Source: a virus
Reading direction: 5' to 3' (one strand)
Virus record (IMG/VR): IMGVR_UViG_3300035670_001097
Coordinates: 1-26,547 of that record
Length of the DNA stretch: 26,547 bases
Shown here: positions 2,689-26,547 of the stretch, in pieces
Numbering within the stretch: the first letter of the stretch is position 1
Layout of the letters: every line of letters begins with the position of its first letter
Translations under genes and position numbers: made by a program
Notes under the pieces: generated by a model
Seen by the model: the letters and a program-made list of their open reading frames with translations, nothing else
Database searches by the model: none
Told to the model about the DNA's origin: nothing

Positions 2689-2703
2689 GGGTGTATTACA
2701 CCC
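2689..2703. promoter_or_regulatory. Palindromic operator copy 1 (upstream of portal)
   Basis: GGGTGTATTACACCC is a 15-bp perfect palindrome around one central base. It lies 16 bases upstream of the portal start and carries the 13-bp core GGTGTANTACACC found at seven other places in the window. The one-base centre makes it a poor RNA hairpin, so a dimeric protein site is more likely. Confidence 0.75.
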
Positions 2704-2724
2704 TAAGAACTACTCCCTTTCCAA
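2695..2724 (-). promoter_or_regulatory. Possible promoter for portal overlapping operator 1
   Basis: On the minus strand TTGGAA (2719-2724) and TGTAAT (2695-2700) are separated by 18 bases. The -10-like hexamer is the left part of the palindrome, so a bound repressor would block it. The -35 match is only moderate. Confidence 0.35.
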
Positions 2725-2901
2725 ATCCTTGTCCAGCGATTTCCCGACACTTTCTATCGTCGTCCGAATCCAATACCGCACCTTCCCGGGCCGCACCGAC
2801 CGGATCAACCCCGCTTCTTCCAGCGCCGCCAGCGCCCGCTTGTCCACCCCCAGCATCGCCATCGCTTCCCCGCTTTTAATCAATATCGGCTTATTTTCCA
2901 T
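2710..2901 (-). CDS. Small helix-turn-helix DNA-binding protein (AlpA/excisionase type)
   Basis: 63 residues. The layout is that of the MerR-like HTH_17 fold: ILIKSGEAMAMLGVDKRAL forms the HTH, followed by EEAGLIRSV and a basic, tyrosine/tryptophan-containing wing. The start ATG has GGAGG five bases upstream; this RBS is the last unit of a nonamer array (2908-2935). It lies between the terminase nuclease gene and portal. That position would suit a small packaging protein as well as a regulator; no terminase small subunit is otherwise evident beside the large subunit. The DNA-binding fold is fairly secure and the role is open. Confidence 0.65.
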   Translation of the reverse strand: MENKPILIKSGEAMAMLGVDKRALAALEEAGLIRSVRPGKVRYWIRTTIESVGKSLDKDLERE

Positions 2902-2907
2902 TCAGAC

Positions 2908-2935
2908 CTCCGTTCTCTCCGTTAACTCCTGTTCA
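2908..2935. repeat. Nonamer array a (TCCGTT type)
   Basis: Units TCCGTTCTC, TCCGTTAAC and a degenerate TCCTGTTCA. Read on the minus strand, the last unit becomes the GGAGG RBS of the HTH gene starting at 2901. Confidence 0.6.
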
Positions 2936-3811
2936 AAAGCACCCACCACCCACCACCTCCAGATCCTCCGGGTCCTCCCACTCGCACCCGGAAACCGCCC
3001 ACATCCGCAAGCAGTCAATCGGGTCCTTTGCCGCGCCCTTCCCGCCATCGAGCCCCGTCCAATTCTCCAGGCTGTAAATCAGATTCGCGCAGTCCTCGCA
3101 AATGAACAGCCTGGGCTTGTTGAAAAAATCCACCGGCTTACCCGGATCGTAGGCCAGCCGGTCCGTGATGATCGTCACCCCCTCGCCGCCGGCATTAACC
3201 GACGGATCATACAGCACCCGAAACTCCGCCTTGGCTGGTTCGAACACCAACCCGATTTCAAGAAACTCAAGGATCAACGTCGTCGGCATGTCCGCGTTCT
3301 CCTTTTTCGCGCTGGCATAGCGCGAATCGATAAATCGCGTCCGCACGTTTTCCACGCTCCCAAGCGACTCACTGAGGCGAATATACCAAGCCTTTTCCCC
3401 CTCGTCCTCCTGCCGGGGCTGCTGCGTAATCGCCTTCCACTGTTCCAGCCGTGCCATCTCGAACTTAATCTGAGCCAGCCCGAACCCGAACGACTGCTGA
3501 GCCGGCCCGGGCCGCCCGTCCTTCTTCTTCCCGTCGGGCAGCGTCCAGGGCCCAGGCACATCCTGCCCGGGAATCTCATAATTTCCGGGCCATTCCCGGT
3601 ACACCCAGCTCGCCCCCGGCGTTTCCCGCACCCAAATGAAAAACGGATTTCGACCCCCGCACGGATCCATGAACAAATTATTCATACCCCGCGCCGGAAT
3701 CTGCGCCTTCTTGATTACATGCACATCCCGGTTGAACAGCGGAAACCGTTGCGCAATGGCCTTATTTGCCACCCCATACCACCGTTCCAAAACATAATCC
3801 GCCGATCCCAT
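2933..3811 (-). CDS. Terminase large subunit, nuclease (RNase H-like) part, as a separate gene
   Basis: 292 residues. It matches the C-terminal nuclease half of large terminases: DPCGGRNPFFIWV with catalytic Asp49 on the first strand, a following REWP, then RFIDSRYAS with Asp162, and near the C-terminus KDPIDCLRM with Asp263/Asp266. These acids would bind the two metal ions that cut concatemeric DNA. The start is firm: AAGGAGG lies four bases before the ATG, and an in-frame TAA lies just upstream, so it cannot be continuous with the ATPase gene. The ATPase gene ends 46 bases upstream in a different frame. The two products must act together during packaging. In most phages they are one polypeptide. 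Confidence 0.8.
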   Translation of the reverse strand: MGSADYVLERWYGVANKAIAQRFPLFNRDVHVIKKAQIPARGMNNLFMDPCGGRNPFFIWVRETPGASWVYREWPGNYEIPGQDVPGPWTLPDGKKKDGRPGPAQQSFGFGLAQIKFEMARLEQWKAITQQPRQEDEGEKAWYIRLSESLGSVENVRTRFIDSRYASAKKENADMPTTLILEFLEIGLVFEPAKAEFRVLYDPSVNAGGEGVTIITDRLAYDPGKPVDFFNKPRLFICEDCANLIYSLENWTGLDGGKGAAKDPIDCLRMWAVSGCEWEDPEDLEVVGGGCF

Positions 3812-3835
3812 TATTCCTCCTTAGCACTCCAAAAA

Positions 3836-3860
3836 CCCATACATCCCATACGTCCCATCA
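3836..3860. repeat. Nonamer array b (TCCCAT type), between the terminase halves
   Basis: Units CCCATACAT, CCCATACGT, CCCATCA. It overlaps the stop codon of the ATPase gene and lies 24 bases upstream of the nuclease gene start. Confidence 0.6.
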
Positions 3861-4856
3861 CGCCACCTTCTGCAACACACTGGCCGGATTCCCGAACGGA
3901 TTATCCGACGTATGGAAAAAGATCACCGCCCGGTCATGCACCAACCGCCCGCCCAACACCCGGGGCGCGCACCGCATCACCCTGGGGACCTTCTTAAACT
4001 TCCGACCCGCCGAAACCACCGGTTGACCCGTTTCCCCTTCCAGCCACTTATCGCAGTCCTCCGGCACCAGGGCCAAATCATGCAGCGCCTCTTTACCGTC
4101 CACCGGCACCAGGAACGCGGTTGAGAACCGGACCGGCACCGCCCCATCCTGGAACAGCTTCACCGTTTGCGAATAGCCCAGGATCGGCGTAAACGTAATG
4201 ATGATTTTCCCCTCCCGGGTAGCGGTACGAAATTCGAGCGTCTCCACCCAATCCGGCGGCACCAGTTCATCCGGCCAGGCATAATCAATCTCGCCGCCCT
4301 CAATCGTCGTCCGGTCCATCTCGTAATTCCAGAAGGAGCAATCCGAAAGATTCGGCAGCGTGAACTTATCCCCTGAAAAACCCGTTTGCGCCTTGTAGTG
4401 GATATACGCCGTTTCGCTCATGATTTTTTTATGCTGCAGCGCGGCCGGCAGGTACTTGTGGACAATCGGCATCTGGTAATCCACCGACATTGCTCGCTTC
4501 GAGTGAAACGCCCAGGCGCGCCGGCCTGGAGCCCGCGCCAATATCTGAACCAGCCGCTTCGCTGCATACTCCGACTTCGAGCCGCGGTTGCCCCCATTGA
4601 TCAGCAACGTGGAAACAGGCGCCTCAAACCCCAAAAGCTGACGCATCGCCTTCCCATACTCCGGATCTCCCCACCCCAGCAAAGCATCCGCCACCTTCCA
4701 TATTTTTGGCTCCCACCCATGATTGAGAGGGTCCATCCTTTCAAGCCGGATAATCTCCTCCCGTTGCTCCACCAACTCCTTCCACCGATCAAACCCAAGC
4801 GCCCGCGCTTGCCCCGCGGAAATCATCGGCAAAATAGGGTGTGGCGTCTGCTTCAA
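3858..4856 (-). CDS. Terminase large subunit, ATPase part, as a separate gene
   Basis: 332 residues, close to the length of the ATPase half alone. The Walker A-like loop is NGGNRGSKS (residues 87-95, Lys94). The Walker B/catalytic motif is IDYAWPDE (residues 190-197, Glu197). The coupling motif is TFTPILGYS (about 221-229). The protein ends just after HTSDNPFGNP, where single-chain terminases continue into the nuclease domain. Start codon is TTG at 4854-4856, chosen because GGAG lies seven to eight bases upstream and no ATG is nearby; it follows the preceding stop after one base. The packaging motor uses ATP to drive DNA through the portal encoded downstream. The nuclease domain is the separate gene at 2933-3811. 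Confidence 0.82.
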   Translation of the reverse strand: MKQTPHPILPMISAGQARALGFDRWKELVEQREEIIRLERMDPLNHGWEPKIWKVADALLGWGDPEYGKAMRQLLGFEAPVSTLLINGGNRGSKSEYAAKRLVQILARAPGRRAWAFHSKRAMSVDYQMPIVHKYLPAALQHKKIMSETAYIHYKAQTGFSGDKFTLPNLSDCSFWNYEMDRTTIEGGEIDYAWPDELVPPDWVETLEFRTATREGKIIITFTPILGYSQTVKLFQDGAVPVRFSTAFLVPVDGKEALHDLALVPEDCDKWLEGETGQPVVSAGRKFKKVPRVMRCAPRVLGGRLVHDRAVIFFHTSDNPFGNPASVLQKVA

Positions 4857-4857
4857 T

Positions 4858-5745: not shown

Positions 5746-5746
5746 A

Positions 5747-9663: not shown

Positions 9664-9704
9664 GATTGCGTCCCGATTGCGTCCCGATTGCGTCCCGATT
9701 GCGT
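9664..9704. repeat. 11-bp tandem repeat GATTGCGTCCC
   Basis: Three full copies (9664-9674, 9675-9685, 9686-9696) and eight bases of a fourth. The 11-bp period puts each copy on the same face of the DNA helix, as in iterons or clustered operators. Confidence 0.8.
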
Positions 9705-9740
9705 ATTGACGAAATGCCCAGCGATAACCCCGGCAACGGT

Positions 9741-10513: not shown

Positions 10514-10526
10514 GGTGTATTACACC
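10514..10526. promoter_or_regulatory. Palindromic operator copy 2 (abuts the 10513 start)
   Basis: GGTGTATTACACC ends at the base next to the ATG of the leftward HTH gene, so it occupies the RBS position. Binding there would block translation-region transcription or elongation. Confidence 0.75.
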
Positions 10527-10539
10527 CGGCACAAAAAAT

Positions 10540-10713
10540 TTAATCCGCCGCCCGGCGCTGCAGGCGATCGATTGAGCTTACGGGCACGCGGACGCACCGC
10601 GGGCCCAGGCGGACCACTCCGAGCCGTCCGGCCCGGATCCACCGTTCGACCTGGCGGACCGACACCGACAACAGGTCCGCGGTGGCCGCCTTGGTTAAAA
10701 GCCGCGCCGTCAT
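10540..10713 (-). CDS. Excisionase-like small HTH protein
   Basis: 57 residues. It has the AlpA/excisionase HTH_17 layout: LLTKAATADLLSVSVRQVE as the HTH, then RWIRAGRLGVVRLGPRCVRV as the wing with RVPVSSIDRL at the end. Such proteins bind near attP and direct the integrase toward excision, or act as regulators. The ATG at 10711-10713 overlaps the end of the upstream RHH gene by four bases, so translation is probably coupled. An alternative frame (10520-10747) is longer but has no domain. It lies between the RHH genes and the HTH gene, downstream of the integrase, with an operator copy 21 bases upstream of its start. Confidence 0.75.
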   Translation of the reverse strand: MTARLLTKAATADLLSVSVRQVERWIRAGRLGVVRLGPRCVRVPVSSIDRLQRRAAD

Positions 10714-10892
10714 CGCGCAGCCGCCTTGCTTTCAAGGTGTAATACACCTTCTAAAATAAGACTCTCAACCTGATTGCTCAGGGTCCGGTTGTTTTGGGCG
10801 GCCAACTCCTCGAGCCTTGCCCGCAGCTCAGGCGCGACGAGTACGGAAACGTGTCGCTTTATCCGTCTCTTTTTTACACTCCCTGATTGCAT
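10710..10892 (-). CDS. Ribbon-helix-helix (Arc-like) DNA-binding protein 1
   Basis: 60 residues. The RHH fold is clear: beta strand RHVSVLVAP, helix ELRARLEELAAQNN, then helix TLSNQVESLILEGV. RHH proteins bind palindromic DNA as paired dimers and often repress their own genes. The start at 10892 lies 65 bases inside the preceding RHH gene in another frame, with GGGAG about ten bases upstream. The operator copy at 10734-10750 lies within its 3' end and encodes Gly-Val-Leu-His-Leu. It is a leading candidate reader of the GGTGTANTACACC sites. Confidence 0.8.
   Translation of the reverse strand: MQSGSVKKRRIKRHVSVLVAPELRARLEELAAQNNRTLSNQVESLILEGVLHLESKAAAR
10734..10750. promoter_or_regulatory. 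Palindromic operator copy 3 (in front of the excisionase-like gene)
   Basis: AAGGTGTAATACACCTT is a 17-bp perfect palindrome around one base. It lies in the RHH1 coding region, 21 bases upstream of the excisionase-like start. Confidence 0.8.
10741..10768 (-). promoter_or_regulatory. Possible promoter for the excisionase-like gene, overlapped by operator 3
   Basis: Minus strand TTGAGA (10763-10768), 16-base spacer, TGTATT (10741-10746). The -10-like hexamer lies in the operator. Confidence 0.4.
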
Positions 10893-11025
10893 GCTCTACG
10901 CACTCCCTGATTATATCCGTTTTCGTTTTTCCGGTTGAGCTTGCCAGCTTTTCAAGCCGCTTGCTCAAATCCTCATCAATCCAAGCACTCAACAACACCA
11001 ACCCAGCCTTGCGCTTGTTTGGCAT
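10828..11025 (-). CDS. Ribbon-helix-helix (Arc-like) DNA-binding protein 2
   Basis: 65 residues from the ATG at 11023-11025, chosen because GGAGG is five bases upstream; a TTG at 11037 in the same frame lacks support. RHH layout: strand LVLLSAWI, helix DEDLSKRLEKLASSTG, helix TKTDIIRECVEHAI, then a basic tail. It is the first gene of the leftward control operon, under a strong promoter whose spacer contains the longest operator copy, so autoregulation is likely. It overlaps RHH1 by 65 bases. Confidence 0.8.
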   Translation of the reverse strand: MPNKRKAGLVLLSAWIDEDLSKRLEKLASSTGKTKTDIIRECVEHAIRECKKETDKATRFRTRRA

Positions 11026-11036: not shown

Positions 11037-11065
11037 ATCTAACACGGTGTAATACACCGTGTCAA
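11037..11065 (-). promoter_or_regulatory. Strong sigma-70 promoter of the RHH operon
   Basis: Minus strand TTGACA (11060-11065), exactly 17 bases, TTAGAT (11037-11042). It lies just downstream of the integrase stop. The palindrome fills the spacer, so occupancy would exclude RNA polymerase. Confidence 0.8.
11042..11062. promoter_or_regulatory. Palindromic operator copy 4 (longest, 21 bp)
   Basis: A perfect 21-bp palindrome around one base, with the core GGTGTAATACACC extended by ACAC on the left and GTGT on the right. It lies between the -35 and -10 elements of the RHH promoter and is the best candidate for the primary operator. Confidence 0.85.
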
Positions 11066-11079: not shown

Positions 11080-12177
11080 TTAAATATCCAACGGCTCCGG
11101 CGCTTCCGCCAGGTCGGCGTAATACTGACAGGTAACAGCCGCGGACCGATGCCGGAGCCAGCGCTGAGCCACCGCAACGCCGTACTTCGTGAACCAGGCC
11201 GCGCCCGCCAACTTGCGCAATTCGTGAACCGTGGAGGGCCCGGACCAGCCAAGGCCACGCATCCACGCCGAAAAATCACGCGTCACCCGGTCATATCGCG
11301 CGGTTTTGCTGGCGCCCACCACAAAAAAAACACGGTCCCCCAGGGCCCGCACCAGAGCGGCGCCCACCGTGCGGGAAACGGGAATGGTCCCCTCGCTATC
11401 TTTTTTAGGTCTGAAACCCTCCTCCGGCCGGGTACAAACCCGCAACGCGTAGCGATCGCCGACCGGCTCGATCCAGCCGCGGCGGCACCCCGCGATTTCG
11501 CCGGCCCGCAGGCCAACGTCAAAGGCGAGCGAAAAAATACAGTACATATCCGGGCAGGTATCCGCCAGAGCCCGGCCGGCCTCGACCGTGCGAGCCACCA
11601 GGCCGGCATCCGGGTAAACCCAGCGCTTACGCGGCGCCGTGCAGGGCGTACGCCGCAAAAATTCCGATAAATCAGGCAATTCTAATCCAGCCTCTTTATA
11701 TGCATCGATCGCCCACCGTGAAAAAATACTGCGCGCCTTGGTTGCGGCGCTTTGGACGGATCGCCGCCTTGATGCGTCATCGCTGGGCCCCACTCCGGCA
11801 AGCGCCCGCTCAGCGTATCGCGTCAGCACGGCGCCGCGCAGCTCCGCCGCGCTCGATTCCGGGCCCAGCCCGGACGCGTCCAACACGCGCAACAAAGCCG
11901 CGGTGTTAGCCTGTATGGTTGACTCAACCAGCCCGCGGAGCGCCGCGGCCCGGGCATACTCGCTCAGTATCTCCTCGATTTTTGAGGCGGAACGGCGCAG
12001 GCTGACCGCATCCAAAACCCGGCGCCGGTCTGTTTCGCTCGCCTCGCGCAGCGACCTTTTCAACGCCACCTCAAAACGGCGCGCTTCGCGTTCGTCCCCC
12101 GTTCGGGTCGATCTGGATACGCGTCGCCCTTGCATCCGCACAACCGCATGATACACATTTCCTCGTTTTTCCAACAT
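11080..12177 (-). CDS. int: Tyrosine-recombinase integrase
   Basis: 365 residues, normal for phage integrases. N-terminal arm-binding part (NVYHAVVRMQGRRVSRSTRT), core-binding SAM-like domain (about 60-185), catalytic domain to the end. Catalytic residues: Arg224 in DVGLRAGEI, a lysine in RPKKDSEGTIPV, His318 and Arg321 in VHELRK, His343 in WLRHRS, and the nucleophile Tyr352 (TCQYYADL). It joins attP to the host tRNA-Leu gene. The RBS AGGGAG lies five bases before the ATG. attP lies about 135 bases upstream of its start. Transcription comes from a good promoter with an operator copy at the start point, so integration is probably repressed with the other control genes. Confidence 0.92.
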   Translation of the reverse strand: MLEKRGNVYHAVVRMQGRRVSRSTRTGDEREARRFEVALKRSLREASETDRRRVLDAVSLRRSASKIEEILSEYARAAALRGLVESTIQANTAALLRVLDASGLGPESSAAELRGAVLTRYAERALAGVGPSDDASRRRSVQSAATKARSIFSRWAIDAYKEAGLELPDLSEFLRRTPCTAPRKRWVYPDAGLVARTVEAGRALADTCPDMYCIFSLAFDVGLRAGEIAGCRRGWIEPVGDRYALRVCTRPEEGFRPKKDSEGTIPVSRTVGAALVRALGDRVFFVVGASKTARYDRVTRDFSAWMRGLGWSGPSTVHELRKLAGAAWFTKYGVAVAQRWLRHRSAAVTCQYYADLAEAPEPLDI

Positions 12178-12189: not shown

Positions 12190-12202
12190 GGTGTACTACA
12201 CC
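12190..12202. promoter_or_regulatory. Palindromic operator copy 5 (integrase promoter)
   Basis: GGTGTACTACACC differs from the others only at the central base. It begins three bases downstream of the -10 element of the integrase promoter, at the expected transcription start. Confidence 0.75.
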
Positions 12203-12311: not shown

Positions 12312-12363
12312 CTTAAAATCCCTCGACCGCAAGGTCATGCGGGTTCAACTCCCGCCCCGGGCA
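12312..12363 (+). other. attP: attP core: 3' part of a tRNA-Leu(UAA)
   Basis: 52 bases equal to a tRNA from the anticodon loop (CTTAAAA, anticodon TAA) to the discriminator base. A long variable arm (GACC, loop GCAA, GGTC) marks a class II tRNA. The T arm has a GCGGG/CCCGC stem with loop TTCAACT. Then comes acceptor strand CCCGGGC and A. The 5' half is absent: the bases before the loop do not pair with TCCCT. No CCA follows. On integration this segment would restore the host tRNA gene. Phage genes on both sides show this is attP in a free genome. Confidence 0.85.
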
Positions 12364-12396
12364 TTTCCAAAAAATAACAGAAAATCGATTATAAAA

Positions 12397-12898: not shown

Positions 12899-12927
12899 TT
12901 GACAGGGTGTAATACACCGGATATATT
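12899..12927 (+). promoter_or_regulatory. Strong rightward sigma-70 promoter
   Basis: TTGACA (12899-12904), exactly 17 bases, TATATT (12922-12927). It drives the only rightward genes of the window. The operator core lies inside the spacer, as in the RHH promoter. Confidence 0.85.
12906..12918. promoter_or_regulatory. Palindromic operator copy 6 (rightward promoter)
   Basis: GGTGTAATACACC centred in the spacer of the rightward promoter; a bound protein would shut off the rightward genes. Confidence 0.85.
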
Positions 12928-13194: not shown

Positions 13195-13352
13195 TGAAAC
13201 AAATGCAAAAAACGAAACCAGAACCATGAAAAACCCGGATAGTCGTTGAGGGCATCGACCCGCGCGATAAAGCCGGCTGGGTGAAAGCGGCCCAGCGGGC
13301 CGGGTTGAAGCTCCGGGAGTGGATCATTGCGCGCCTCAACGGCCAGCTTTAG
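13194..13352 (+). pseudogene. Third RHH gene interrupted by an in-frame TGA
   Basis: The frame starts at ATG 13194-13196, overlapping the stop of the previous gene. It reads 11 codons, meets TGA at 13227-13229, and continues open for 40 codons to TAG at 13350-13352. The downstream part has RHH layout: strand KTRIVVEGI, helix DPRDKAGWVKAAQRAG, helix KLREWIIARLNG. CGA to TGA is the simplest explanation: a C-to-T nonsense change would restore Pro-Arg-Lys-Thr. No in-frame start with an RBS lies after the TGA. Its last 17 bases overlap the end of the giant gene on the other strand. A sequencing error is possible. Confidence 0.6.
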
Positions 13353-16300
13353 CCTTTTCCATGGCTTCCTCGATAGCCACCTTTTCCGCGGTGCTTTGCG
13401 CGTTCATTAAAGCCCGCACGTCCGGCGGCATGTATCCGCCCCCTTTGCTGGCCTGGTTCATCAGGTACGGGGCCGCGGCCGGGTATTTCTTTACCGCCCC
13501 CTGCAGCGCGGCGCCGCGGGTGGCGTCCGGCTCCGCCAGCGCCTTTTGCACCTCCAGGCGCCCGGCCGCGCCCTGGGCCCGGGCGTCCATGATCGGCCCC
13601 TTGACTGAATCGTACAGCCCGCGGTCGGAAATCTTGATCCATCGCCCGATTGAGTTGCTGACGATAGGGAGATTCAGAAACTTCTCCATGGGCGGCGCCT
13701 TCGCGTCGCGCATATACCAGTTGTCCGCCTGCAACCGGGTGACGATCCCACCCCCGAGGCTGTTCCAGGCATACCGCGCCATGGCACCATCCGCATCCTT
13801 GGACAGATCCCGGGCGGCGAAAACGTCATCTCGTAACAAAAGCTCCCCACGGAAACGGTCGTAGGGGTTACGGTCGAGAAGCTTGTACGCGTACCAATCC
13901 ACCGCCACCTTGGAAATCGGGTTTTGCGTGGGCACCTGCCCGCCGGCATAGCTCCCGATACCCTGGGCCCCGCGGCCCGTGTCGGACAGTCTGTTCAGCA
14001 TCAGCCAGAACGCGCCGCCCATCATCCGTTGCCCCTCGTCCAGGGGCATCCGGTGATACACCAGTTTCTTAGGCCCGGCCGGGGTTTCCTCCCAAATCCA
14101 TGAGAATTTCCCGGACTTCATGTCCTGCCACCCCAGCGGGGTGTTCACATAGTTGGTTTGGTCATAATCCCCGATGTATCGCCCCGCCTCCTCCATCTTG
14201 TCCGACAGCCATTTCCCGAGGATCATCCGCAGCCCGCCCGTGAACAGCGCGAACTGTATAGCTTTCGGCAAAAACGCATATTTAAGCTGGTGCCAAATAT
14301 ACGATGCCCAGCCTTCTTTGAAGGCCTTGACCTCCGAGCGAACGCTTTGTTTCCAGGGGTTGTAGTACATCGCGGAAAACAGCTCGATCACCGGGTTAAA
14401 CGCCGGCTTGTCCAGGAAGTCCGGCGACCCGGCCAGGTTATGCACCATGTTTTGCTTTTTCCACTCCGGGAGGTTTGAAAAATGCTCGTCCAGGTACAGC
14501 ATGCCGGCAATCTTGAACGTGCGTTCAGATATTTGACCGATCTGCGTCCACTTATCCCACAGCCTCAGCAGGCGCGCCCCGGGCGACACCGCCGACCGGC
14601 GCCACAAAACCGGGTTTTGATGCCAGTTGTTTAGTAATCGTTCGTATACCGTATCCACGTCGGAAAGCCCTTGCGGATTTGCTACGGAAATAAGGTCATT
14701 CCGCATCAGCGCATCCTTGGCGATTTCGTTCGGACGCCCATGGATGCCCGACCTCGAGGCCGCCCAGGATCGCGCGAAATACTTCCAGAACCCCCGCCGC
14801 CCGAACAGCGCCGCCTTCGGCATCTTGCGCGCGAACGCAAACATATCCCTTACGAACGCCACCGGCCAGAACCCGTAATTGATTTCCGTCATCACCCCCT
14901 TGATCGGCCGGTTCAAATACTTCGCCATCCCGGCCATCATCCGATTTTCGATCGTGTCCCCGTGCTGCAGGCCGGCATAGATCGACCGCGGCACATACAC
15001 CCCATGCAGCTTACCCTTGTGCAGATAGGTCAAGGTCTGGACGTTCTCCGACTGCTCCACTTTCGGGATTTGGCGCGTACCGTCCCACACGTTGGGCGCC
15101 CGGGCCACCATCGGATCCTTGATTTCCAGCAGCGCCTCGGCGGACAGCCGCTTCGCGTGCTCCCTGTGCGCCATGTTGATTAGCGATAGCGCCTTGGCCG
15201 CCAGCGCCGAGGCCGGATTCATGATGTCCTGCAGCGTCCCCACCTGACGGTAAATCTGCGAACCCGCTGCATCCCCATACATTCGGGCCAGTTCAAACTC
15301 GATGGTGCCCTCCTTGGCCGACACATCCCCGCGCACCACCGCAAACGTCGCGTAATACACCCGTTCCTCAAGCACCGCCTGCAGCTCTGGGGTCAGAATC
15401 TCGAAATCGCGCAGCGTCCCCAGCACATACTTCTCGTAAATTGCCCGGAACTCCAGCCGGGCCCGCTCCAGAGCGTCGAACCGTTGCCGGCCCAGCGATT
15501 CCAGCATGGATTCCAGACCGTCCGCGGCCGCCTTCGGATCGGTGGCGCCCGGGTTGGCCACGTCGGCCCGGTTGTGAAGAATATGCTGGTAAAACATGTA
15601 TTCCCCGAGGTTGGCCATGTCCAGCCCGTGCTCCAGTAACACCCCACCCACCCGCTGGTTCAACTCCGCCATGACCAGCTCGCTTTGAGCCGCCTTGTAT
15701 CGAAAATCCGCAAGCGCCTTCATCACCTGTCCCCGCCGCTCCTCCGGCAGCTTCGGCAGCCGACGGTAAATCGGCCCCAGGGTCCGATCGAACCCGTAAA
15801 TCAGCATGTCCGCCGCCATCTCAGCCTTCGCCTTGGCCGCCGAGGTATCGCCCCCGGCGAGCGACTTCCAGAACGACGGCGTGAATTTCAGGTCCATCCA
15901 ATCGGCGTCCGACTTCTGGAACCCTTCCAGCAGCCGGAGCCGCCGGTTCTTGTGCGCGGCCCCGGTCTTCAGCTCATTCTGAATTCGCTGCCATTGCGCC
16001 CGCACCAGAGGCTTCCGGTCCAGCCAGGCATTGAACGCGTTCCAGAACTGCGGGGCCCTGGTCGCCATGGCGGCCGGGTTCGTGAGGATCACCGAGAACG
16101 CTTCCGCATACATCTCATGCCCCTGCAAAAAATATTCCGGCACCTGTCCCCCCGGCTCGATCCCGCGCCACCAGGCAATCAAATCCTCCAACTCCTGCCG
16201 CACCTTATCCCGGTTAAGCAGGCCTCGCATTTCCTCTTGCTCGTCGCGCAGCTCCGCGTACTGCTTGCGCACCGCATCTTGCCAGGCCGCCAGGTCCGCC

Positions 16301-19300
16301 TCCTCATCCTTGGGCGGGCGGGGCCCTACCATCTTCTCCGCATCGCGCCGGAGCTTCTGCAGCTCTTTCTTGGTAAAAACATTCCCCTGCTTCGCCGGCG
16401 TCTCCCCCAGCCACCGCCGGAAATACTGCTGGAACGTGGCAATACGGGCCAGGATATTACCACGCCCGCGGATTATCCCTTCCGGATTAAAGTCAGCCAT
16501 GTGCCCGATCTCATGGGAAAGCGTCCGCGCGGCCTGTCGGGTGGTTTCCTGCATCCGCTTTTCCCGCGTCGTATCCCAAAAGAATTCAAAGCGGCGCTGG
16601 GCCACCCCGCCCACAAAATCAGCCTGTTCTTTCGTCATGTTCTCCGGGTCAAACCCCTCACCAAACTCGATGGACGCCTGGGCCAGCGCATCCTTGTTGG
16701 CCTGGGTCTGCATCTTTTCCAGCTCGTCCGGCATGATCAGTTGAAAAATATCCGCCCGCAGTCGGATCTTCCCGCTGTCGAGCTGCCCGGGGATGTGCCG
16801 GAAGTGTCCGTAAGCATTGCGCAAGAACTTGCGCACCTCCGGCGTTTCCCGCCCGTTGATCGCCCGGGCCAGCTCCAGCAGCTCCGGCAACTCCATCGCA
16901 TACGGCGCCGGGTTTGGGTCATCGCCGGGCTTCGGCACCCGCGGCGCCGGGGTCCCCAGGTCCGGCCGCGGGTCCCACCGCTCCACCGGCTTTTCGAACA
17001 CCCACCCCCCGGGGGCCTCGCGGACCGTCTCCATACGCCCCTCATGAAATGCAATAACGCCTTGTTCCCGCGCGCTCCATACTTCACCGTTTGCACCATC
17101 CAGCGTAAGCACATCTAAAATTTTCGCATGCGGGCTCGATTCTGCCAGTCGCTTGATCTGCTGCACTAACCCGGTATATTGAATAGCCTTTCCCGGTATT
17201 TCAATCACCATACCCACCCCGCTATTTCTCGAAACGATTTTCGCCAAAAGCGGGCCTACCTCGTTTTGCGGAATATCAATCGGAATACGCTCCAAAGCGT
17301 TCACTCGGTTTTTTGTGTCGAGCACCATCACGTGCCCATAACCCGGGTCCGCTTGACGCAATGCGCCAATAATTGGCCTTGCGTTTTCTGGAGTTCTTAC
17401 AATCCACTTTTTACTGGACTCCACCGCTTCCCATGGCGCTAAACTTTTGTTAGATATTTCACCTGCATTATAATCAATTTCCGGAGTAATTTCGACAAAG
17501 TTTTCCCCGTTTGTAACGACATGACCAAGCAATTTGATTCCGGATCTATCCAGTTCCTGCTTCATTTTCTTTGTCAGCAAAATATCTTCTGAGCTTGGTG
17601 CGGGATCTCCGCTTGGGTGATTATGCGATATCCACACCCCATCGACAGGTCCTTCGATTTTGTTCATAACGCGCATGACCATATCGGAAGACATCAATGT
17701 GGCGTTTAATTCGCCCATGCTCACCAACTCGCACGCCACCACCCGCCCATCCCGCACCGCCACCACCTTCGAACTCTCGAAATCCGGCGACCGGGCCGGT
17801 ATCATCATCGCCGCCACGTCCGCGGCGTCGCGCACCACCTGCCCCGCCACATTGAAAGCCGGAATCCGCCCGTCCACCAGATCCCGGAGCACCCAGCGCA
17901 CCCCCTGGGACATCCGGAACGCCTCCCGCAGCGCCCGCGCATTGCGCGGATTGGCGATCGCCGCCGCGTTGGCCTCCTCCGCGGTCATGGGAGGAGGCGC
18001 CGGAGCCCGGTAGGGCTCATGCAGCCCCGGCAATTCGAGCTGCGCCAGCGTATCCGCCAGCGCCTGCCCGGCCCTGGCAGGATTCTTCACCCCGTTCTTG
18101 GCCGCGAACGCCGCCACCGGCTCAAACAGCGATCCTTGCGACTCCGGCGCCGCAAACAAATCCGTCTGCCGTCCGGCGCCCCGGGCTGCCGCCGCCTTCG
18201 CCCGCATCGTATCCCGCCGGGCCACCGCCGCGCCGATCCGGGTCCACTTCGCTTGCGCTTCGTCTTCCGTCATCCGGCCGGCCGCCAGGTCTTCCAGCAG
18301 GTTCACCGCCTGCCGCTGCATCTCCCGGCTCTCCAACACCTGCACCGCGGTGGACGCCGTGGGCATCGGCTTTGCCGCCACGTCTTGCAGCAGCCGACGA
18401 AACGGGCTGGGCCCCGCCGCCATGCCGAACAGGTCTTGCTGCTCCTTTAATAGATTGGCCCCGGGCGCGCCGCCTGGTGTGGTCTTCTCATGGTTTCCCA
18501 TGAACGGAGCTGCCGCCGATGGCGGGCTTGGTGTGTCGATAAGGCCGGCGCGCGCCGAGGCCAAAGCTACTTTTGCGGGGTCGCTCCCCCAATGCTCCCA
18601 ATCCGCGATTTCCGCACGGAGACGGTCTATCTCCGCCAACGTTTCCTTCTCGTCCTTAAAATTTACCCCCATCTCCGCCGCCGCCTCCGGACGCTTCAGC
18701 GCCCCGATGGCCGCCCGGATCTTGTTCTTCATCTCCTCCACGAATTTTTGCGCCGCATTTGCCCGCGCGATCGAGTCATTCAGCGCCTGATCGCTGGTCC
18801 CAAACAGATCCCCCTGGGCGCCCGCCTTCTTCGCGGTCGGAAACGCTTTGCGGCTCTGAATAAAATGCTTCGGGCTCAACTTTGAATCCCGGCCCAGCAT
18901 GTAGACCGCCTCGCGCTGCAGGTCCGTATCCAAAGGCGCCGCTTCCGCTATTTCCGCGGCCGCATCCGTATTAAGCTTACCACTTTGCCAAAGGGCAAAG
19001 GAGTCGGGCGATAAATAGCTGGCGATGGCGAAGGACTTCCGGCCAAGGGCTCTTGCAAGGAGTCCTTTGTCCCGGGCTTCAGGCTCTGAGATGTTTGACC
19101 CTTTGAAGAATTGAACGTAGTCATCGAGATCGCCCTTTCCGTCTAAAATGTTCTTTTCTGCGTCCATCACCGCCGCGTCTTCCGCGGTGAACCCATCTTC
19201 CTCCCTGAAAACCTCGGCCAGCATCTTAGGGTATCCCGTGCGAACCGCCAAATCCCGCCGATGCCGCCCGGAAATCACTTCCAGGTCCCCATTCTTCCGC

Positions 19301-20985
19301 TCCCATACCTGGATAATCCCCGCCGCGCCCACGTCATACTCCCCGCCAAGCTTTTGCCCTTCCACAACCCCCGTTCGTGGGTCGGCCCCTCGCTTAAAGT
19401 TTGGCACATCCTTGGAAAGTTTCAAGCTGTCCGTATCCAGCCAGCGAATATTCTCCGCCCCAGGCGGCGCCATCCTCACCCACGCATCCGCATGGGCCTG
19501 GTAGCTCTCCACAAACCCCTCCGGCAACCCCTCCAGGTCCGCGGGTCCGGCCTCCGTTACGTCCGTTAAGTCCGCTTCCCCCACTGGCACCCCCTGCACC
19601 GGCCCTTCCTCAATCTTACCCGTATCCGGCAACTGATCTTCCAAAGGTTGGAAATCCGGCTCCTCCTTCTTTCCAACCTTTGGAACCCGGCCGCGCTCGC
19701 GCATCCCGGACGCCTGCAGCATCGCCCCGCCGGCCGTTTCCGCCGCGCCGCTCCCCACCTCCGCCAGCCCTTCCGCGAAAACCGCCACCGGGTTAAACCG
19801 CTCCCCGGCCGCCACCTGCCCGGCCGCCTCCCCGGCCATCCCCATTCCGGCCTGCTTCCCCGCCTCCTTGCCGGCAGCCGCCAGCTTGTTGAACAACCCG
19901 ATTGCCGGCTTTTCTACCACCTTCGCCCCGATCAACACCGACGCCGCGTCGAACATTCCCACCGTCAACCCGCGCCGCCAGGCCAGGCTTCGCGCCTTGC
20001 TCATGATCTTCGGATCCGTAAATCCGCGCTGTACGTCCTTGGGGTCGTCCAGATTCACCCCGGCTTTTTCCAGGCTTTCCAGCAGCTTCCCGGCATACTC
20101 CACCGAAAGCGACGCCCCGCCGGTCCCCGCCGCCAGGCCGGCCAGTGCCCCCGCCGAGGTCCCCACCAGCGGGATAACCGACCCCGCGCCCGCACCCGCC
20201 GCCACCCCCGCCGGTACGTTCTGCACCACCGCCGGCAACAGGTTGCCGAGGCTTTCCGCAATCAACTCCGAGGTCACCGCCAGCGGATTCTTAGCAAACG
20301 CCTTGGCCGCCTGGGCAAAATCGTCCGTCTGAAACGCCGCATACTCCGGGCTGGTCGGAACATCGCCCGACTCTTTCCGCAACTCCACCAGGGCCCAAGC
20401 TGCCTCCTGATTGGCCGGGTTATATTCCAATTGCTGCGAGGCAATCATCTGCTGCCCCTGATTGGCCCCCCGCCTCCAGGCCGCCTTGATCTGGTCAGCG
20501 CTTGGTATCTGGTCGTCAAGCGCCTCGTTGGCCCCAAGGAACGCCCGCATGATCCCTTCCGAAAGATTCACCCTGCCCAGCACCTCCCCCACCGTAGGCG
20601 CCTGCCACTCCGGGACCTGCAAATTCCCCTGGGCGAACACCCGTTGAAACCCGGGCGGATCCGGAACCGGGTCATATTTCAACGTCTGGTACTTCGAGAA
20701 ATCAGGAAAAGCCAGCTCGTCCTCCACCTCCTGCTCCAGCTTCGCCGCCGCGGCCGGCACGGGAAACGCATCCGGGTACTTCTTCCGCACCCGCCGGAAA
20801 AATTCCTGCCGGGTCGCCTCCTGCTTCTCCGGCTCCATTTCCTCAAACGCCTGCAGGTTGCCCGGGGAATTGGCCTGCCACGTATCGAACAGCCGCCCCA
20901 TGGCCGCATTGAGCGCGTCGGGATTCTGCGCCACCTTCTGCCAGCGCGGATCGCCCAGCACCTCGCTGATGTCGAACCCGGTCAC
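13336..20985 (-). CDS. Giant polyvalent virion protein (ParB-like, RadC/JAB, zincin, LPD-like C-terminus)
   Basis: 2549 residues. From the N-terminus: a helical region; Gly/Ala-rich hydrophobic stretches (about 245-295 and 365-430); a ParB-like domain with SGRHRRDLA (His575) and a following helical part; linkers with Q-x-D/S-L-F motifs (724-982); a RadC/JAB domain with HNHPSGDP (His1121, His1123, Asp1127); a second, degenerate JAB-like segment (about 1188-1275); a zinc-protease HEIGH (1491-1495); and a long helical C-terminus with WDKWTQIGQISERTFKIAG, resembling LPD-type domains of phage polyvalent proteins. Such proteins are packaged and ejected with the DNA to protect or process it in the host. 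The start is GTG, overlapping the previous stop (GTGA), with AAGGG upstream. Confidence 0.85.
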   Translation of the reverse strand: MTGFDISEVLGDPRWQKVAQNPDALNAAMGRLFDTWQANSPGNLQAFEEMEPEKQEATRQEFFRRVRKKYPDAFPVPAAAAKLEQEVEDELAFPDFSKYQTLKYDPVPDPPGFQRVFAQGNLQVPEWQAPTVGEVLGRVNLSEGIMRAFLGANEALDDQIPSADQIKAAWRRGANQGQQMIASQQLEYNPANQEAAWALVELRKESGDVPTSPEYAAFQTDDFAQAAKAFAKNPLAVTSELIAESLGNLLPAVVQNVPAGVAAGAGAGSVIPLVGTSAGALAGLAAGTGGASLSVEYAGKLLESLEKAGVNLDDPKDVQRGFTDPKIMSKARSLAWRRGLTVGMFDAASVLIGAKVVEKPAIGLFNKLAAAGKEAGKQAGMGMAGEAAGQVAAGERFNPVAVFAEGLAEVGSGAAETAGGAMLQASGMRERGRVPKVGKKEEPDFQPLEDQLPDTGKIEEGPVQGVPVGEADLTDVTEAGPADLEGLPEGFVESYQAHADAWVRMAPPGAENIRWLDTDSLKLSKDVPNFKRGADPRTGVVEGQKLGGEYDVGAAGIIQVWERKNGDLEVISGRHRRDLAVRTGYPKMLAEVFREEDGFTAEDAAVMDAEKNILDGKGDLDDYVQFFKGSNISEPEARDKGLLARALGRKSFAIASYLSPDSFALWQSGKLNTDAAAEIAEAAPLDTDLQREAVYMLGRDSKLSPKHFIQSRKAFPTAKKAGAQGDLFGTSDQALNDSIARANAAQKFVEEMKNKIRAAIGALKRPEAAAEMGVNFKDEKETLAEIDRLRAEIADWEHWGSDPAKVALASARAGLIDTPSPPSAAAPFMGNHEKTTPGGAPGANLLKEQQDLFGMAAGPSPFRRLLQDVAAKPMPTASTAVQVLESREMQRQAVNLLEDLAAGRMTEDEAQAKWTRIGAAVARRDTMRAKAAAARGAGRQTDLFAAPESQGSLFEPVAAFAAKNGVKNPARAGQALADTLAQLELPGLHEPYRAPAPPPMTAEEANAAAIANPRNARALREAFRMSQGVRWVLRDLVDGRIPAFNVAGQVVRDAADVAAMMIPARSPDFESSKVVAVRDGRVVACELVSMGELNATLMSSDMVMRVMNKIEGPVDGVWISHNHPSGDPAPSSEDILLTKKMKQELDRSGIKLLGHVVTNGENFVEITPEIDYNAGEISNKSLAPWEAVESSKKWIVRTPENARPIIGALRQADPGYGHVMVLDTKNRVNALERIPIDIPQNEVGPLLAKIVSRNSGVGMVIEIPGKAIQYTGLVQQIKRLAESSPHAKILDVLTLDGANGEVWSAREQGVIAFHEGRMETVREAPGGWVFEKPVERWDPRPDLGTPAPRVPKPGDDPNPAPYAMELPELLELARAINGRETPEVRKFLRNAYGHFRHIPGQLDSGKIRLRADIFQLIMPDELEKMQTQANKDALAQASIEFGEGFDPENMTKEQADFVGGVAQRRFEFFWDTTREKRMQETTRQAARTLSHEIGHMADFNPEGIIRGRGNILARIATFQQYFRRWLGETPAKQGNVFTKKELQKLRRDAEKMVGPRPPKDEEADLAAWQDAVRKQYAELRDEQEEMRGLLNRDKVRQELEDLIAWWRGIEPGGQVPEYFLQGHEMYAEAFSVILTNPAAMATRAPQFWNAFNAWLDRKPLVRAQWQRIQNELKTGAAHKNRRLRLLEGFQKSDADWMDLKFTPSFWKSLAGGDTSAAKAKAEMAADMLIYGFDRTLGPIYRRLPKLPEERRGQVMKALADFRYKAAQSELVMAELNQRVGGVLLEHGLDMANLGEYMFYQHILHNRADVANPGATDPKAAADGLESMLESLGRQRFDALERARLEFRAIYEKYVLGTLRDFEILTPELQAVLEERVYYATFAVVRGDVSAKEGTIEFELARMYGDAAGSQIYRQVGTLQDIMNPASALAAKALSLINMAHREHAKRLSAEALLEIKDPMVARAPNVWDGTRQIPKVEQSENVQTLTYLHKGKLHGVYVPRSIYAGLQHGDTIENRMMAGMAKYLNRPIKGVMTEINYGFWPVAFVRDMFAFARKMPKAALFGRRGFWKYFARSWAASRSGIHGRPNEIAKDALMRNDLISVANPQGLSDVDTVYERLLNNWHQNPVLWRRSAVSPGARLLRLWDKWTQIGQISERTFKIAGMLYLDEHFSNLPEWKKQNMVHNLAGSPDFLDKPAFNPVIELFSAMYYNPWKQSVRSEVKAFKEGWASYIWHQLKYAFLPKAIQFALFTGGLRMILGKWLSDKMEEAGRYIGDYDQTNYVNTPLGWQDMKSGKFSWIWEETPAGPKKLVYHRMPLDEGQRMMGGAFWLMLNRLSDTGRGAQGIGSYAGGQVPTQNPISKVAVDWYAYKLLDRNPYDRFRGELLLRDDVFAARDLSKDADGAMARYAWNSLGGGIVTRLQADNWYMRDAKAPPMEKFLNLPIVSNSIGRWIKISDRGLYDSVKGPIMDARAQGAAGRLEVQKALAEPDATRGAALQGAVKKYPAAAPYLMNQASKGGGYMPPDVRALMNAQSTAEKVAIEEAMEKAKAGR
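17090..17720 (-). other. A/T-rich island within the giant gene covering the two JAB-like segments
   Basis: By eye this stretch is much richer in A and T than the flanking coding sequence and uses different third positions. It covers the catalytic end of the RadC/JAB domain and the degenerate copy, which suggests later acquisition by domain exchange. Confidence 0.5.
19553..19579. repeat. Nonamer array e inside the giant gene
   Basis: TCCGTTACG, TCCGTTAAG, TCCGCTTCC, encoding Glu-Ala-Asp-Leu-Thr-Asp-Val-Thr-Glu in a linker. It is the same unit as the arrays in front of genes, without a start codon nearby. Confidence 0.6.
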
Positions 20986-23479: not shown

Positions 23480-23482
23480 ATG

Positions 23483-24306: not shown

Positions 24307-24331
24307 GATCACATCCTTTCAAAAAAAATCA

Positions 24332-24892
24332 TCAAGTAATCGGTAACGCACTCCAAAGCACAAACACATCCACCTCGCCCGCGGTGGCCGCGTCCAGGTC
24401 GTCATCGGTGGACACCGCCGCCACCCTCACGCTGGTAACCGACCCGAAATTCTCCAGCCCGTCCGGGGAAGTCCCCTCATTGCCCGAGTGCTGGAACACC
24501 GTATCCCCCACCGTCTGGAACGCATCGAACGCCCCGGCGTAGGCTGTCAGATCCCCCGCCTTCCCCACGCTCACCGTGTAGGCCGAAATCGATCCCCCGG
24601 CAAACGCCGTACCGTGCTTGATCACCACCCGGTGTATTACACCCCCCGCCGGCAGCTCGAAAAGCTGAATATCGTTGGTGGTTGCCGCCGCCGCCAGGTC
24701 CTCAAAGTCCACCGTGTACTTCCGCCACCGGGGCACCGCCTGGGTAGCCTGGATTTTGCTGTTGGCGATCTCCAGCGAAGTCCCGTCCACCAGGTACTCC
24801 GTGGGGTTCATGGTCTGGATGAGCTGGTAAATCAGCTCCCGGGTAACATTCTTTTCCGGGAGGTCCACCGATCTAAGCATAGTCTGAGGCAT
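24332..24892 (-). CDS. Beta-rich tail-associated structural protein
   Basis: 186 residues. The N-terminal part (ELIYQLIQTMNPTEYLVDG) is helical. The rest is beta-rich and ends GEVDVFVLWSALPIT, a style common in phage tail or fibre-adaptor proteins. It lies between tail nozzle and tail fibre, which supports a tail role. Its start is preceded by a nonamer array and no better RBS. The operator copy at 24631-24643 is inside the gene and encodes Gly-Val-Ile-His. No named family recognised. Confidence 0.6.
   Translation of the reverse strand: MPQTMLRSVDLPEKNVTRELIYQLIQTMNPTEYLVDGTSLEIANSKIQATQAVPRWRKYTVDFEDLAAAATTNDIQLFELPAGGVIHRVVIKHGTAFAGGSISAYTVSVGKAGDLTAYAGAFDAFQTVGDTVFQHSGNEGTSPDGLENFGSVTSVRVAAVSTDDDLDAATAGEVDVFVLWSALPIT
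24631..24643. promoter_or_regulatory. Palindromic operator copy 7, within a late gene
   Basis: GGTGTATTACACC, exact core, inside the beta-rich tail gene. No good -35 element lies in front of it, so it would act as a roadblock-type site, or it is a relic. Confidence 0.6.
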
Positions 24893-24894
24893 AA

Positions 24895-24927
24895 TCCACG
24901 TCCGTTTCGTCCGTTAAGTCCGTTCTC
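24895..24927. repeat. Nonamer array i (TCCGTT type)
   Basis: TCCACG, TCCGTTTCG, TCCGTTAAG, TCCGTTCTC, filling the whole gap between the tail-nozzle stop and the 24892 start. Confidence 0.65.
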
Positions 24928-26547
24928 ACACCTTCACCCCATACCCCCGCTTCCCCGCCTTCGCCTCCATCTCCACCGAATGCACATTGCATCGCCCCTG
25001 CGCGTTCTCGATCCGGGCCTGGGCATACTGCCCCCGCGCCTTGATCTTCCACCGCAAATCCGCCCGCTGGTGCAGGTGCAGGTTGACCCCGCTCCCCACG
25101 TACAGCTCCGGATTCCCCCCGTCCAGCTCCACCGAATAATCCTGCCGGTGAGGCCTCCCGTGATCGTCGTTGACATTGCTGGGGTCATAATCCGTCTCGC
25201 TCCAGGTGTAATACACCGTCCGACCCCGTGTCGTCAACGTTTCCAGCGCCTTGATTTCAGCGATCCCGTCCGTCTGCACCGCCACCGAAAACGTCGGCCG
25301 CCAGCTCGCCATGTTCACCTTCAGGGTTTGTGCATCCTTCGAATCCAGCACCCCCATGGCATACCCCCGGGTCAGCAGCATGTCCGCAATCTCGTACCGG
25401 TCGCTCCACAGCCGGTCCTCATACCCCGTATTCATCATCATCACCGCCCCCGCCGCCCGGTCATACGGTCGCGAGGCCCCGTTCACCAGAAACAGCCGGT
25501 ACTGTCCGCTGTACTCCGCCGTCAGAAAATGCCGCACGTCCAGAAAGTCCGGCGCCTCCCACTTCCCGCTCCAGGCCCGGTTGAGAAAATCGAAAACCAG
25601 AATCGTATTGTTGTAATTCGCTTCCCCCGTCGGCACCGCCAAATACAGCTTGTTTGCGTGCGACGCCATCACCGCCGCGTCCACCCGGTCCCACTTGATC
25701 GACCGGAACAAAGGCTCCAGGGGCGCGCTTGCCGGCTCCGCCACCGCCTGCAGCTTATTATCGATCGCCTGGGAAATCGCATAAATCCCGTGATCGCTGA
25801 GGAACCAGACATCCTTCCCCACCCCCGCCACCGCGTCCCGGGCCACCAGCCCATAGGTCGGGGTCAGCTTCCGCGCGTTCACCGCCGACAAATCCCCATA
25901 CACACCCGCCAGCGCCCAAATGCTTTGATCCTTGAAAACCAGAATCGTCGTCTCGTCCCACGCCCACAGCCTCACGATCCGGTCATTATCCCCGGAATTG
26001 ATCGTAAACCGGCTCGTCGCCGCGTTGAACCGGGTATAGTCCATAATATCGCTCACCACGATTTCATCCCGCCCGCTTACCACCCACACCCGGTTTTTGA
26101 AAAACATCGCCTCCGAGGCATTGGGAATCTGCAACGTCCCGTCCCCGTATGAATTATCATCGTCCGTATTCCGGTTAGCGGTCTGAGAAATAAACTCCCA
26201 TTCCCCCACCCCGTCCTGGAAGTCCAGCGCGGGGTCCCACACCAACGGCTCTTTGTCCGTGCCCCGGAACATCAACACCCGGTCAAAACACTGAATCATC
26301 CGCACAGGCTCCTCGATGATCTCCCCCACCGGCAGATTGATCAACGTCGGGCTCTGATGCTGGGCCACCAGGTAAACCGCCGTACGCACCGCAAACAGCA
26401 TCATCTCATTCCCGTGCGGATCCGAAAACACCCCCGCCCCAAAAATCTCCCCAAAGCCAATCTCCTTATCGAACGAAAACCCGCCCGCGGAATACCCCTC
26501 CTGATCCACCGCCACCGTCGCCCCGCCCCCCCCCCGCCAGATAGAAA
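24926..26547 (-). CDS. Tail nozzle / stabilisation protein (beta-propeller), 5' end outside the window
   Basis: At least 540 residues; the frame stays open to the right edge through a glycine run encoded by ten C bases (26526-26535), so the GTG at 26515 is probably not the start. Repeated blade-like segments (AVYLVAQHQSPTLINL, QCFDRVLMFRGTDKEPLVWD, KDVWFLSDHGIYAIS, HANKLYLAVPTGEANYNNTI) fit the propeller fold of the T7 gp12-like tail nozzle. WDETTILVFKDQSIWALAG is typical of the family. It forms the tube end of the short tail. An operator copy with a promoter-like sequence lies inside it. Confidence 0.75.
   Translation of the reverse strand, partial: SIWRGGGGATVAVDQEGYSAGGFSFDKEIGFGEIFGAGVFSDPHGNEMMLFAVRTAVYLVAQHQSPTLINLPVGEIIEEPVRMIQCFDRVLMFRGTDKEPLVWDPALDFQDGVGEWEFISQTANRNTDDDNSYGDGTLQIPNASEAMFFKNRVWVVSGRDEIVVSDIMDYTRFNAATSRFTINSGDNDRIVRLWAWDETTILVFKDQSIWALAGVYGDLSAVNARKLTPTYGLVARDAVAGVGKDVWFLSDHGIYAISQAIDNKLQAVAEPASAPLEPLFRSIKWDRVDAAVMASHANKLYLAVPTGEANYNNTILVFDFLNRAWSGKWEAPDFLDVRHFLTAEYSGQYRLFLVNGASRPYDRAAGAVMMMNTGYEDRLWSDRYEIADMLLTRGYAMGVLDSKDAQTLKVNMASWRPTFSVAVQTDGIAEIKALETLTTRGRTVYYTWSETDYDPSNVNDDHGRPHRQDYSVELDGGNPELYVGSGVNLHLHQRADLRWKIKARGQYAQARIENAQGRCNVHSVEMEAKAGKRGYGVKV
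25205..25217. promoter_or_regulatory. Palindromic operator copy 8, within the tail-nozzle gene
   Basis: GGTGTAATACACC, exact core, encoding Thr-Val-Tyr-Tyr-Thr on the coding strand. Confidence 0.65.
25210..25237 (-). promoter_or_regulatory. Possible internal late promoter overlapped by operator 8
   Basis: Minus strand TTGACG (25232-25237), 16-base spacer, TGTATT (25210-25215), the same arrangement as at 10741-10768. It would drive the downstream tail genes. Confidence 0.4.

Follow-up and report, generated by a model that had tools for sequence, protein, structure and literature searches.

A 13-bp palindrome repeated along a virus record, the probable operator of a small ribbon-helix-helix repressor

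The virus record IMGVR_UViG_3300035670_001097 of IMG/VR, analysed here over its entire 26.5 kb (26,547 bases) and called the window, holds eight exact copies of a 13-bp palindrome, GGTGTANTACACC, at positions 2690, 10514, 10736, 11046, 12190, 12906, 24631 and 25205. We consider it probable that this palindrome is the operator of a small phage-encoded ribbon-helix-helix (RHH) repressor, here the protein RHH1, and that the copies make up a master repressor network. What we observed is the repetition itself, the association with promoters, the recurrence in relatives and the placement of the palindrome before RHH genes whose products begin MPN[QK]R. That RHH1 binds these sites, that its binding represses, that a variant site is bound more weakly and that all this serves lysogeny or lytic timing are predictions from those observations.

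Eight copies of one palindrome and their placement

The copies and their surroundings are as follows.

2690 to 2702, copy 1: between a 63-aa HTH_17-like gene and the Shine-Dalgarno sequence of a 725-aa portal-like gene
10514 to 10526, copy 2: abutting the ATG of a 237-aa helix-turn-helix (HTH) gene, labelled TerS-like from its place before the terminase
10736 to 10748, copy 3: at the 3' end of the gene for RHH2, a second RHH protein, and 22 nt before an HTH_17 (excisionase-like) gene
11042 to 11062, copy 4, minus strand: a 21-bp palindrome in the spacer of the RHH1 promoter, with TTGACA 1 bp upstream of the core
12190 to 12202, copy 5, minus strand: just 3' of TTGACG-17-TATGCT and upstream of the integrase Shine-Dalgarno sequence
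12906 to 12918, copy 6: in the 17-bp spacer of the rightward promoter TTGACA-17-TATATT
24631 to 24643, copy 7: within a 186-aa late gene, with no clear promoter
25205 to 25217, copy 8: within a 529-aa late gene, with TTGACG-18-TATTAC on the minus strand

The eight copies are real and not due to chance. A sequence-only reading of the window had listed them and had put the chance expectation at about 0.002, and both hold: 26,547 x 4^-12 gives 0.0016, and 100 dinucleotide shuffles of the window yielded 0 copies. Every copy is a perfect inverted repeat, and palindromic flanks explain the three longer spans of 15, 17 and 21 bp that had been given for some of them. No copy with one mismatch lies elsewhere in the window, and so there is no hint of a decaying repeat; two places match with two mismatches, and the reversed pattern does not occur in the window. 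In a census of exact 6 + 6 palindromes with gaps of 0-4 bases across 192 sequences, a set partly gathered through this motif and with much overlap between loci of the same records, the highest count belonged to the window with its 8 copies, followed by G022 (L099) with 7 and G019 (L100) with 4, where G and L numbers are our handles for records and loci. The network had been called genome-wide; it does extend across the record, and contig-wide is the better word, since the window is the whole 26.5-kb record, which may or may not be the full genome.

Synonymous-codon shuffling of 23 window frames left no in-gene copy in 947 of 1000 runs and one copy in 53, compared with the three observed when 10736, inside RHH2, is included. 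The probability of the motif given the peptide was 0.00025 at 24631, 0.0001 at 10736 and 0.052 at 25205. Both of the copies that had been assigned to late genes are thus present, and they differ in weight: the one at 24631 is strongly non-random, with codon choice an unlikely explanation, while the one at 25205 may be protein-driven chance and, because of its probability, is weak evidence taken alone. Only 24631 looks like a true in-gene site distant from a promoter.

Among the other copies, that at 2690 contains a possible -10, TGTAAT, within the site (TTGGAA-18-TGTAAT, minus strand), that at 10736 has TTGAGA-18-TATTAC on the minus strand and a plus-strand promoter-like pair that scores slightly better (p 0.012), and that at 12906 is separated by one base from the TTGACA before it and by three from the TATATT after it. 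The unadjusted p-values of the promoter pairs were 0.008 at 11046, 0.007 at 12906, 0.016 at 12190 and about 0.03 each at 2690, 10736 and 25205, the last three being weaker because the motif itself holds -10-like letters. For a wider count we used the 34 sites of seven multi-copy records (the window, G022, G019, G003, G031, G030 and G025), leaving out L057 and L087, which resemble the G019 and G022 records. TTGAC lies 0-24 bp upstream, on either strand, of 21 of the 34 sites compared with 5.6% of random positions (binomial p 2e-18); the count is 19 of 32 without G003, which had been fetched by a TTGACA pattern, and 3 of 8 in the window alone. Likewise, 27 of the 34 sites have the start of an ATG frame of 45 aa or more no farther than 40 nt away, versus 36% of random positions (p 3e-7), with some of these frames, such as that at 25205, being unlikely genes.

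The distance from the TTGAC hexamer to the site varies by phage, being 0/1, 10, 13/14 or 22 bp, as would be expected of a movable operator more than of a fixed promoter element. This bears on the idea, which we regard as quite unlikely, that the palindrome is a promoter element or an activator site for a phage transcription factor and not a repressor site. In its favor, exact sites lie 10 bp after TTGAC[AGT] in 5 of 7 cases in L099 and 3 of 4 in L100, the best-scoring -10 is the motif's own TACACC in 4 of 5 and 3 of 3 of those, and the variant found before RHH genes, described below, keeps the 10-bp spacing. A fixed promoter element, however, would not tolerate the other spacings, and autoregulated RHH proteins of this size are usually repressors.

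The proximity to start codons could also be read as a role in RNA, with the palindrome acting as a small hairpin or as an element bearing a Shine-Dalgarno sequence. Several copies do lie 0-2 nt before an ATG with GGTG at Shine-Dalgarno distance (10514 in the window, 14013 and 15080 in L099, 10086 in L100 and 3721 in L115), and at copy 2 the GGTG half may be usable in this way. Such a role is hard to credit for the motif as a whole, as it stands 0-1 bp after TTGACA, where it would be upstream of the transcript, at 11046 and 12906 and in L101, L001, L004, L005 and L104, and no Rfam family reached its cut-off in the window.

The scattered copies had been likened to the stoperators of mycobacteriophage L5, which in the strict sense would be sites that halt elongating polymerase across the prophage. 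There is a likeness: the excerpts of PMC9283540 and PMC6550527 describe for L5 and cluster A scattered short sites, promoter copies included, with a site at the repressor's own gene, and the L5 repressor uses more than 20 of them (excerpts of PMC9283540); the copies at 24631, at 25205 and before the portal would suit such a role. In the same excerpts of PMC9283540, however, the L5 sites are asymmetric and orientation-dependent and lose function when reversed, and their repressor is a monomer of two domains, an HTH and a second DNA-binding one. The sites of the window are symmetric, without orientation, and lie mostly at promoters or starts, with 25205 possibly chance. The Pfam and PHROGs scans of 10 window proteins revealed no cluster A-type repressor. 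Since symmetry and placement differ from L5 as excerpted in PMC9283540, membership among the stoperators is unsupported, and we regard true stoperators as unlikely here. The sequence-only reading therefore stands in part, in its one palindromic operator network and its likely small RHH reader, and falls in its comparison with L5.

Recurrence of the motif in other virus records

Scans of viral contigs found TTGACANGGTGTANTACACC in 5 stretches and CGGTGTANTACACCG in 93, and most single-copy loci of the latter look like chance. The first whole-record counts covered 24 chosen loci of these 98. Counted by record, G022 (18.4 kb) has 7 copies, G031 6, G019 (17.1 kb) and G030 (44 kb) 4 each, G025 3 and G003, a 17-kb piece, 2. 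Two scans that also required TTGAC, either 10-11 bp before the motif or directly next to it, yielded 24 and 16 stretches and added 25 new records, 11 of which carry two to four copies. Two candidates were set aside: G006 (L025; 83 kb, A+T rich, 5 copies), whose GGTGTA half-sites belong to dense repeats, and L092, with copies in a repeat about 60 bp apart. The dense GGTGTA/TACACC half-site repeats at 1-11809 of L025 are apparently another phenomenon. A different repeated palindrome, CAACCGNNNCGGTTG, was seen in L085 (611-12601) and L054, in four and three copies.

The sequence-only reading had proposed enrichment in relatives as a check, and the enrichment was found. In 76 loci (717 kb) chosen solely by terminase similarity in an alignment search, the motif turned up 13 times, in 8 loci that fall into four near-identical pairs; one of these pairs (L110, L114) was already known by the motif. 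The 8 patterns that served as controls, namely the reversed motif and 7 other palindromes, were all absent. When permuted half-sites were compared as a further control in the form h-N3-h' in these relatives, GGTGT gave 15 occurrences and the next, ACCCA, 4, with 13 of the 20 giving none. Most of the 76 have no motif, and whole-record counts on 21 terminase relatives gave 6 copies in G031, 4 in G030, 1 in G040 (excluded from our counts) and zero in the remaining 18, so that the network would belong to some members of the group and not to all. Two further loci from the promoter-form scan, L002 and L003, have a terminase 35% identical to that of the window, and the portal of L003 is 30% identical. 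The motif lies upstream of the TerS-like gene in the window, L101/L003, G030 and G031, and the 237-aa HTH gene has a related gene in L003/L101 (blastp 3e-7).

In the bacterial and archaeal genome collection, scanned only for the promoter-linked form TTGACAN plus motif, there were just 3 stretches, one of them before an RHH gene, and hence no obvious host regulon. This is relevant to a partition, packaging or recombination site, or the site of a host regulator, which we hold to be very unlikely. The sites are palindromic and scattered, and RHH proteins also serve as centromere-binding proteins, with ParG among the profile matches given below. Against this stand the promoter association, the spread of the copies, which do not form one array, the presence of an integrase, and the few genome matches for the promoter-linked form, the bare motif being outside that scan.

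RHH1 as the candidate reader and its proposed self-operator

The window encodes two small RHH proteins.

10831 to 11025, minus strand: RHH1, 65 aa (MPNKRKAGLVLLSAWIDED..., beginning MPNKRKAG), the proposed reader
10710 to 10892, minus strand: RHH2, an Arc-like 60-aa protein, an alternative reader

The longer frame of RHH1 matches Pfam RHH_1 with 24.8 bits, above the cut-off of 20.5, and this match assigns it to the RHH fold; RHH2 matches phrog_3431 (3.5e-11) and Pfam RHH_5 with 24.9 bits, under the cut-off of 26. Compared with solved RHH proteins, the family profile gave E-values of 0.015 for CopG, 0.017 for NikA, 0.03 for ParG and 0.5 for Arc. As single-protein queries against viral contigs, neither RHH1 nor the portal found a relative, and one L099 protein matched just two already known records. 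Proteins of the MPN[QK]R type occur in L099 (two), L100, L200 and others, with MANQRKAG in G031 and MPGQRRKG in L098; other RHH starts are MPNQPKT in L001, L004 and L005 and MSKGTTPH in Pseudarthrobacter (L104). The RHH proteins of L001, L004 and L005 resemble those of Gordonia phages, the comparison having been made for the L001 protein. In a six-sequence alignment M1, R5 and W15 are invariant, which suggests the N-terminal arm and the strand tryptophan as points of interest.

The RHH family and the motif tend to occur together. Among the 25 further records, found by DNA pattern alone, the RHH profile matched in 14 (E <= 3.2e-7), corresponding to 14 of the 17 that are at least 15 kb long and 9 of the 11 multi-copy ones; the multi-copy records without the profile, G070 and G072, are both small. 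Eleven of these 14 begin MPNQR (one is L198), and the rest have MANQPKT (L223) or an SPNQPK stretch (L219, L221). Counted by locus, a match was found in 15 of 36 (E <= 4.3e-6; 11 of the 36 belong to records already counted) versus 4 of 86 single-copy loci (E 7e-4 to 5e-3). An RHH1-like protein is present in 5 of the 7 multi-copy records.

The placement of the palindrome before these genes adds to the strong correlative support for a small RHH reader. In 232 sequences we counted 22 MPN[QK]R genes with the strand tryptophan; the 60 nt upstream contain the palindrome, exact or with a single mismatch, in 19 of them. It is exact before 6 of them, namely RHH1 of the window, where it lies at 11046 in the gene's own promoter as is typical of RHH repressors, and five loci of the G022 lineage. 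Before the 13 others (13 loci, 12 records) it takes exactly the form GGTGTAAGACACC, and at each of them it follows TTGAC by 10 bp and precedes the ATG by 9-13 nt. This is a one-base variant with one half-site changed, and its 13 occurrences in the 232 sequences are all at such genes; it was not selected for, since it was absent from the search patterns and the loci had been fetched for exact copies elsewhere. GGTGTAAGACACC is apparently a weakened self-operator, which RHH proteins would bind less tightly than the exact site.

Related arrangements extend beyond this group. The palindrome also precedes RHH genes in L098, L001, L005 and L104, and in L004 the RHH gene begins about 240 bp downstream of the site. 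Three terminase relatives without the exact motif, L127, L128 and L153, have an RHH protein of the MPSIRA type with GGTGTCAAACACC 4 nt before the start codon in L128 and L153 and a sequence one mismatch from it in L127, so that 3 of 5 motif-free RHH-bearing terminase relatives have a GGTGT..ACACC-like site before the RHH gene. This suggests a covariation of site and protein and counts in favour of an RHH reader. In Phistory, GGTGTGGGCACACC lies upstream of the RHH gene. Related RHH proteins occur in 20 Gordonia phage records, and four of the 5 examined are of the [MV]PNQPKT type. The sites could be sorted into classes, with ANT-centred targets (GGTGTAATACACC), the AAG-centred self-operator (GGTGTAAGACACC) and the CAA-centred sites of the MPSIRA group.

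Several points weigh against an RHH1-like reader. At E <= 0.01, neither G003 (17 kb) nor G030 (44 kb) yields an RHH match, and G030 holds only a weak candidate beginning MPGVRK (E 0.32); the E-values of our profile A3 for five positives are circular, because A3 was built from their own proteins. RHH matches were also found in 5 of 10 motif-free terminase relatives (E 1.9e-8 to 1.2e-7). Near-identical RHH proteins, in three groups by eye, mean that the variant stands for fewer than 12 independent events. One gene, the second RHH gene of the G022 lineage, accounts at three loci for all three MPN[QK]R genes that lack the palindrome, G031 has no motif directly before its RHH gene, L117 and L194 (G037) have no GGTGT..ACACC-like palindrome there, and none of the 5 Gordonia phage records examined has the motif within one mismatch. 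As for the protein itself, of ten RHH relatives, none passes a Pfam cut-off and four lack any match; RHH1 has a hydrophobic predicted strand, whereas those of Arc and CopG are polar; the AlphaFold monomer is modest (predicted local distance difference test 79, predicted template modelling score 0.51) with two helices and no strand; and the best Foldseek matches of the model are RHH proteins, none of them reaching E 0.001.

Could another DNA-binding protein of the phage, RHH2 or the HTH_17 excisionase-like protein, be the reader instead? The motif precedes the HTH_17 gene in the window, L099 and L098, and RHH2 adjoins RHH1 and is Arc-like. HTH_17 was found, however, in 3 of the 7 multi-copy records, fewer than have an RHH1-like protein; G019 and G031 combine many copies and an RHH1-like protein with no HTH_17 match, and 19 of the 22 MPN[QK]R genes are preceded by the palindrome. 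We consider another reader improbable and RHH1 the likely one.

If RHH1 is the reader, a dimer, or a pair of dimers, would sit on the symmetric site, and as most copies overlap a promoter, whether in its -35/-10 spacer, at the -10 or close to the start site, or directly adjoin a start codon, the bound repressor would block initiation of transcription. It could in this way restrain together its own gene, the HTH_17 gene, the integrase, the rightward promoter, the TerS-like gene and the portal transcript, with the copy at 24631 possibly acting as a roadblock or internal operator. In the large group of relatives with the one-base variant at the repressor's own promoter, self-repression would be looser than repression of the targets; a variant is to be expected there if the own gene is to be repressed less tightly. 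A repressor of about 50-75 residues would then coordinate a whole phage, and its family could be recognised from operator and MPN[QK]R start, which would help to predict, from the operator, lysogeny and immunity groups of uncultured phages and would provide a simple system in which to study how RHH specificity and self-repression are tuned.

A more tentative and on the whole doubtful extension, which joins a word shared across hosts (actinobacteria and the host of this phage) with a shared immunity group, is that small RHH proteins whose arm is of the MPNQ type read one operator word, GGTGT-N3-ACACC, in distantly related phages alike. The repressor of a prophage could in that case silence, and give immunity against, otherwise unrelated phages, and the immunity group would be set by a common tiny repressor and not by genome kinship.

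Known systems and neighbouring features

P22 Arc and Mnt and plasmid CopG are small RHH repressors that autoregulate from symmetric operators at promoters, and they are known from one or few operators. The proposed system resembles them in its small RHH repressor and symmetric promoter operators, with CopG and Arc as weak profile matches, and differs in having up to eight copies per record at many transcription units. The closest working analogue, on our best reading, is MrpR/SPBRE of SPbeta, in which, according to the excerpts of PMC10516654, one phage repressor of tyrosine-recombinase fold uses one short repeated element, the 15-bp SPBRE, at many promoters to maintain lysogeny. The window likewise has one repeated element at many promoters of one phage, but with an RHH candidate of about 50-75 aa and a 13-bp palindrome in place of the recombinase fold and SPBRE of those excerpts; of the 10 window proteins scanned, only the integrase is recombinase-like. 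None of the papers searched joins ribbon-helix-helix and stoperator, and the papers containing the motif or its 11-bp core, and the matches listed for its 9-bp core, were on other subjects by title.

Three other genes of the window are as follows.

11080 to 12177, minus strand: tyrosine integrase (PF00589 27.7 bits, cut-off 27.1; phrog_1 5.5e-17)
10540 to 10713, minus strand: HTH_17/excisionase-like protein, 57 aa (Pfam PF12728 1e-8; phrog_66 3.4e-7)
2710 to 2901, minus strand: HTH_17-like protein, 63 aa, upstream of the portal (15.7 bits, below the Pfam cut-off)

From the integrase, the excisionase-like protein and a tRNA-like stretch we infer prophage silencing, and a temperate life of this phage is likely. 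Among the relatives, PF00589 is over the cut-off in G030 and G031, below it in G022 and without a match in the pieces G019, G003 and G025, so that a temperate life is not established for all multi-copy records. The stretch at about 12320-12370, beside the integrase, resembles a tRNA T-arm and 3' end and is perhaps an attachment site; ARAGORN found no tRNA in the window. Words similar to AAAAAGTACCGCAAA are repeated at about 9770, 12240 and 12500, and the two that flank the presumed attachment site are perhaps integrase arm sites.

A megablast of positions 1-25000 against the phage collection gave no match. The portal, which has a weak profile match and a tblastn match to Phage C75C1, and the terminase are distantly like those of that phage (24.6% and 27.7% identity). 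The large terminase is split in two frames, 2933-3811 and 3858-4856 (minus strand), both matched by one 558-aa frame of L003/L101. A short tandem repeat of about 11 bp (GATTGCGTCCC) lies at 9665-9705 near a C-rich run, and 13336-20985 (minus strand) encodes a 2549-aa protein with a RadC-like JAB domain.

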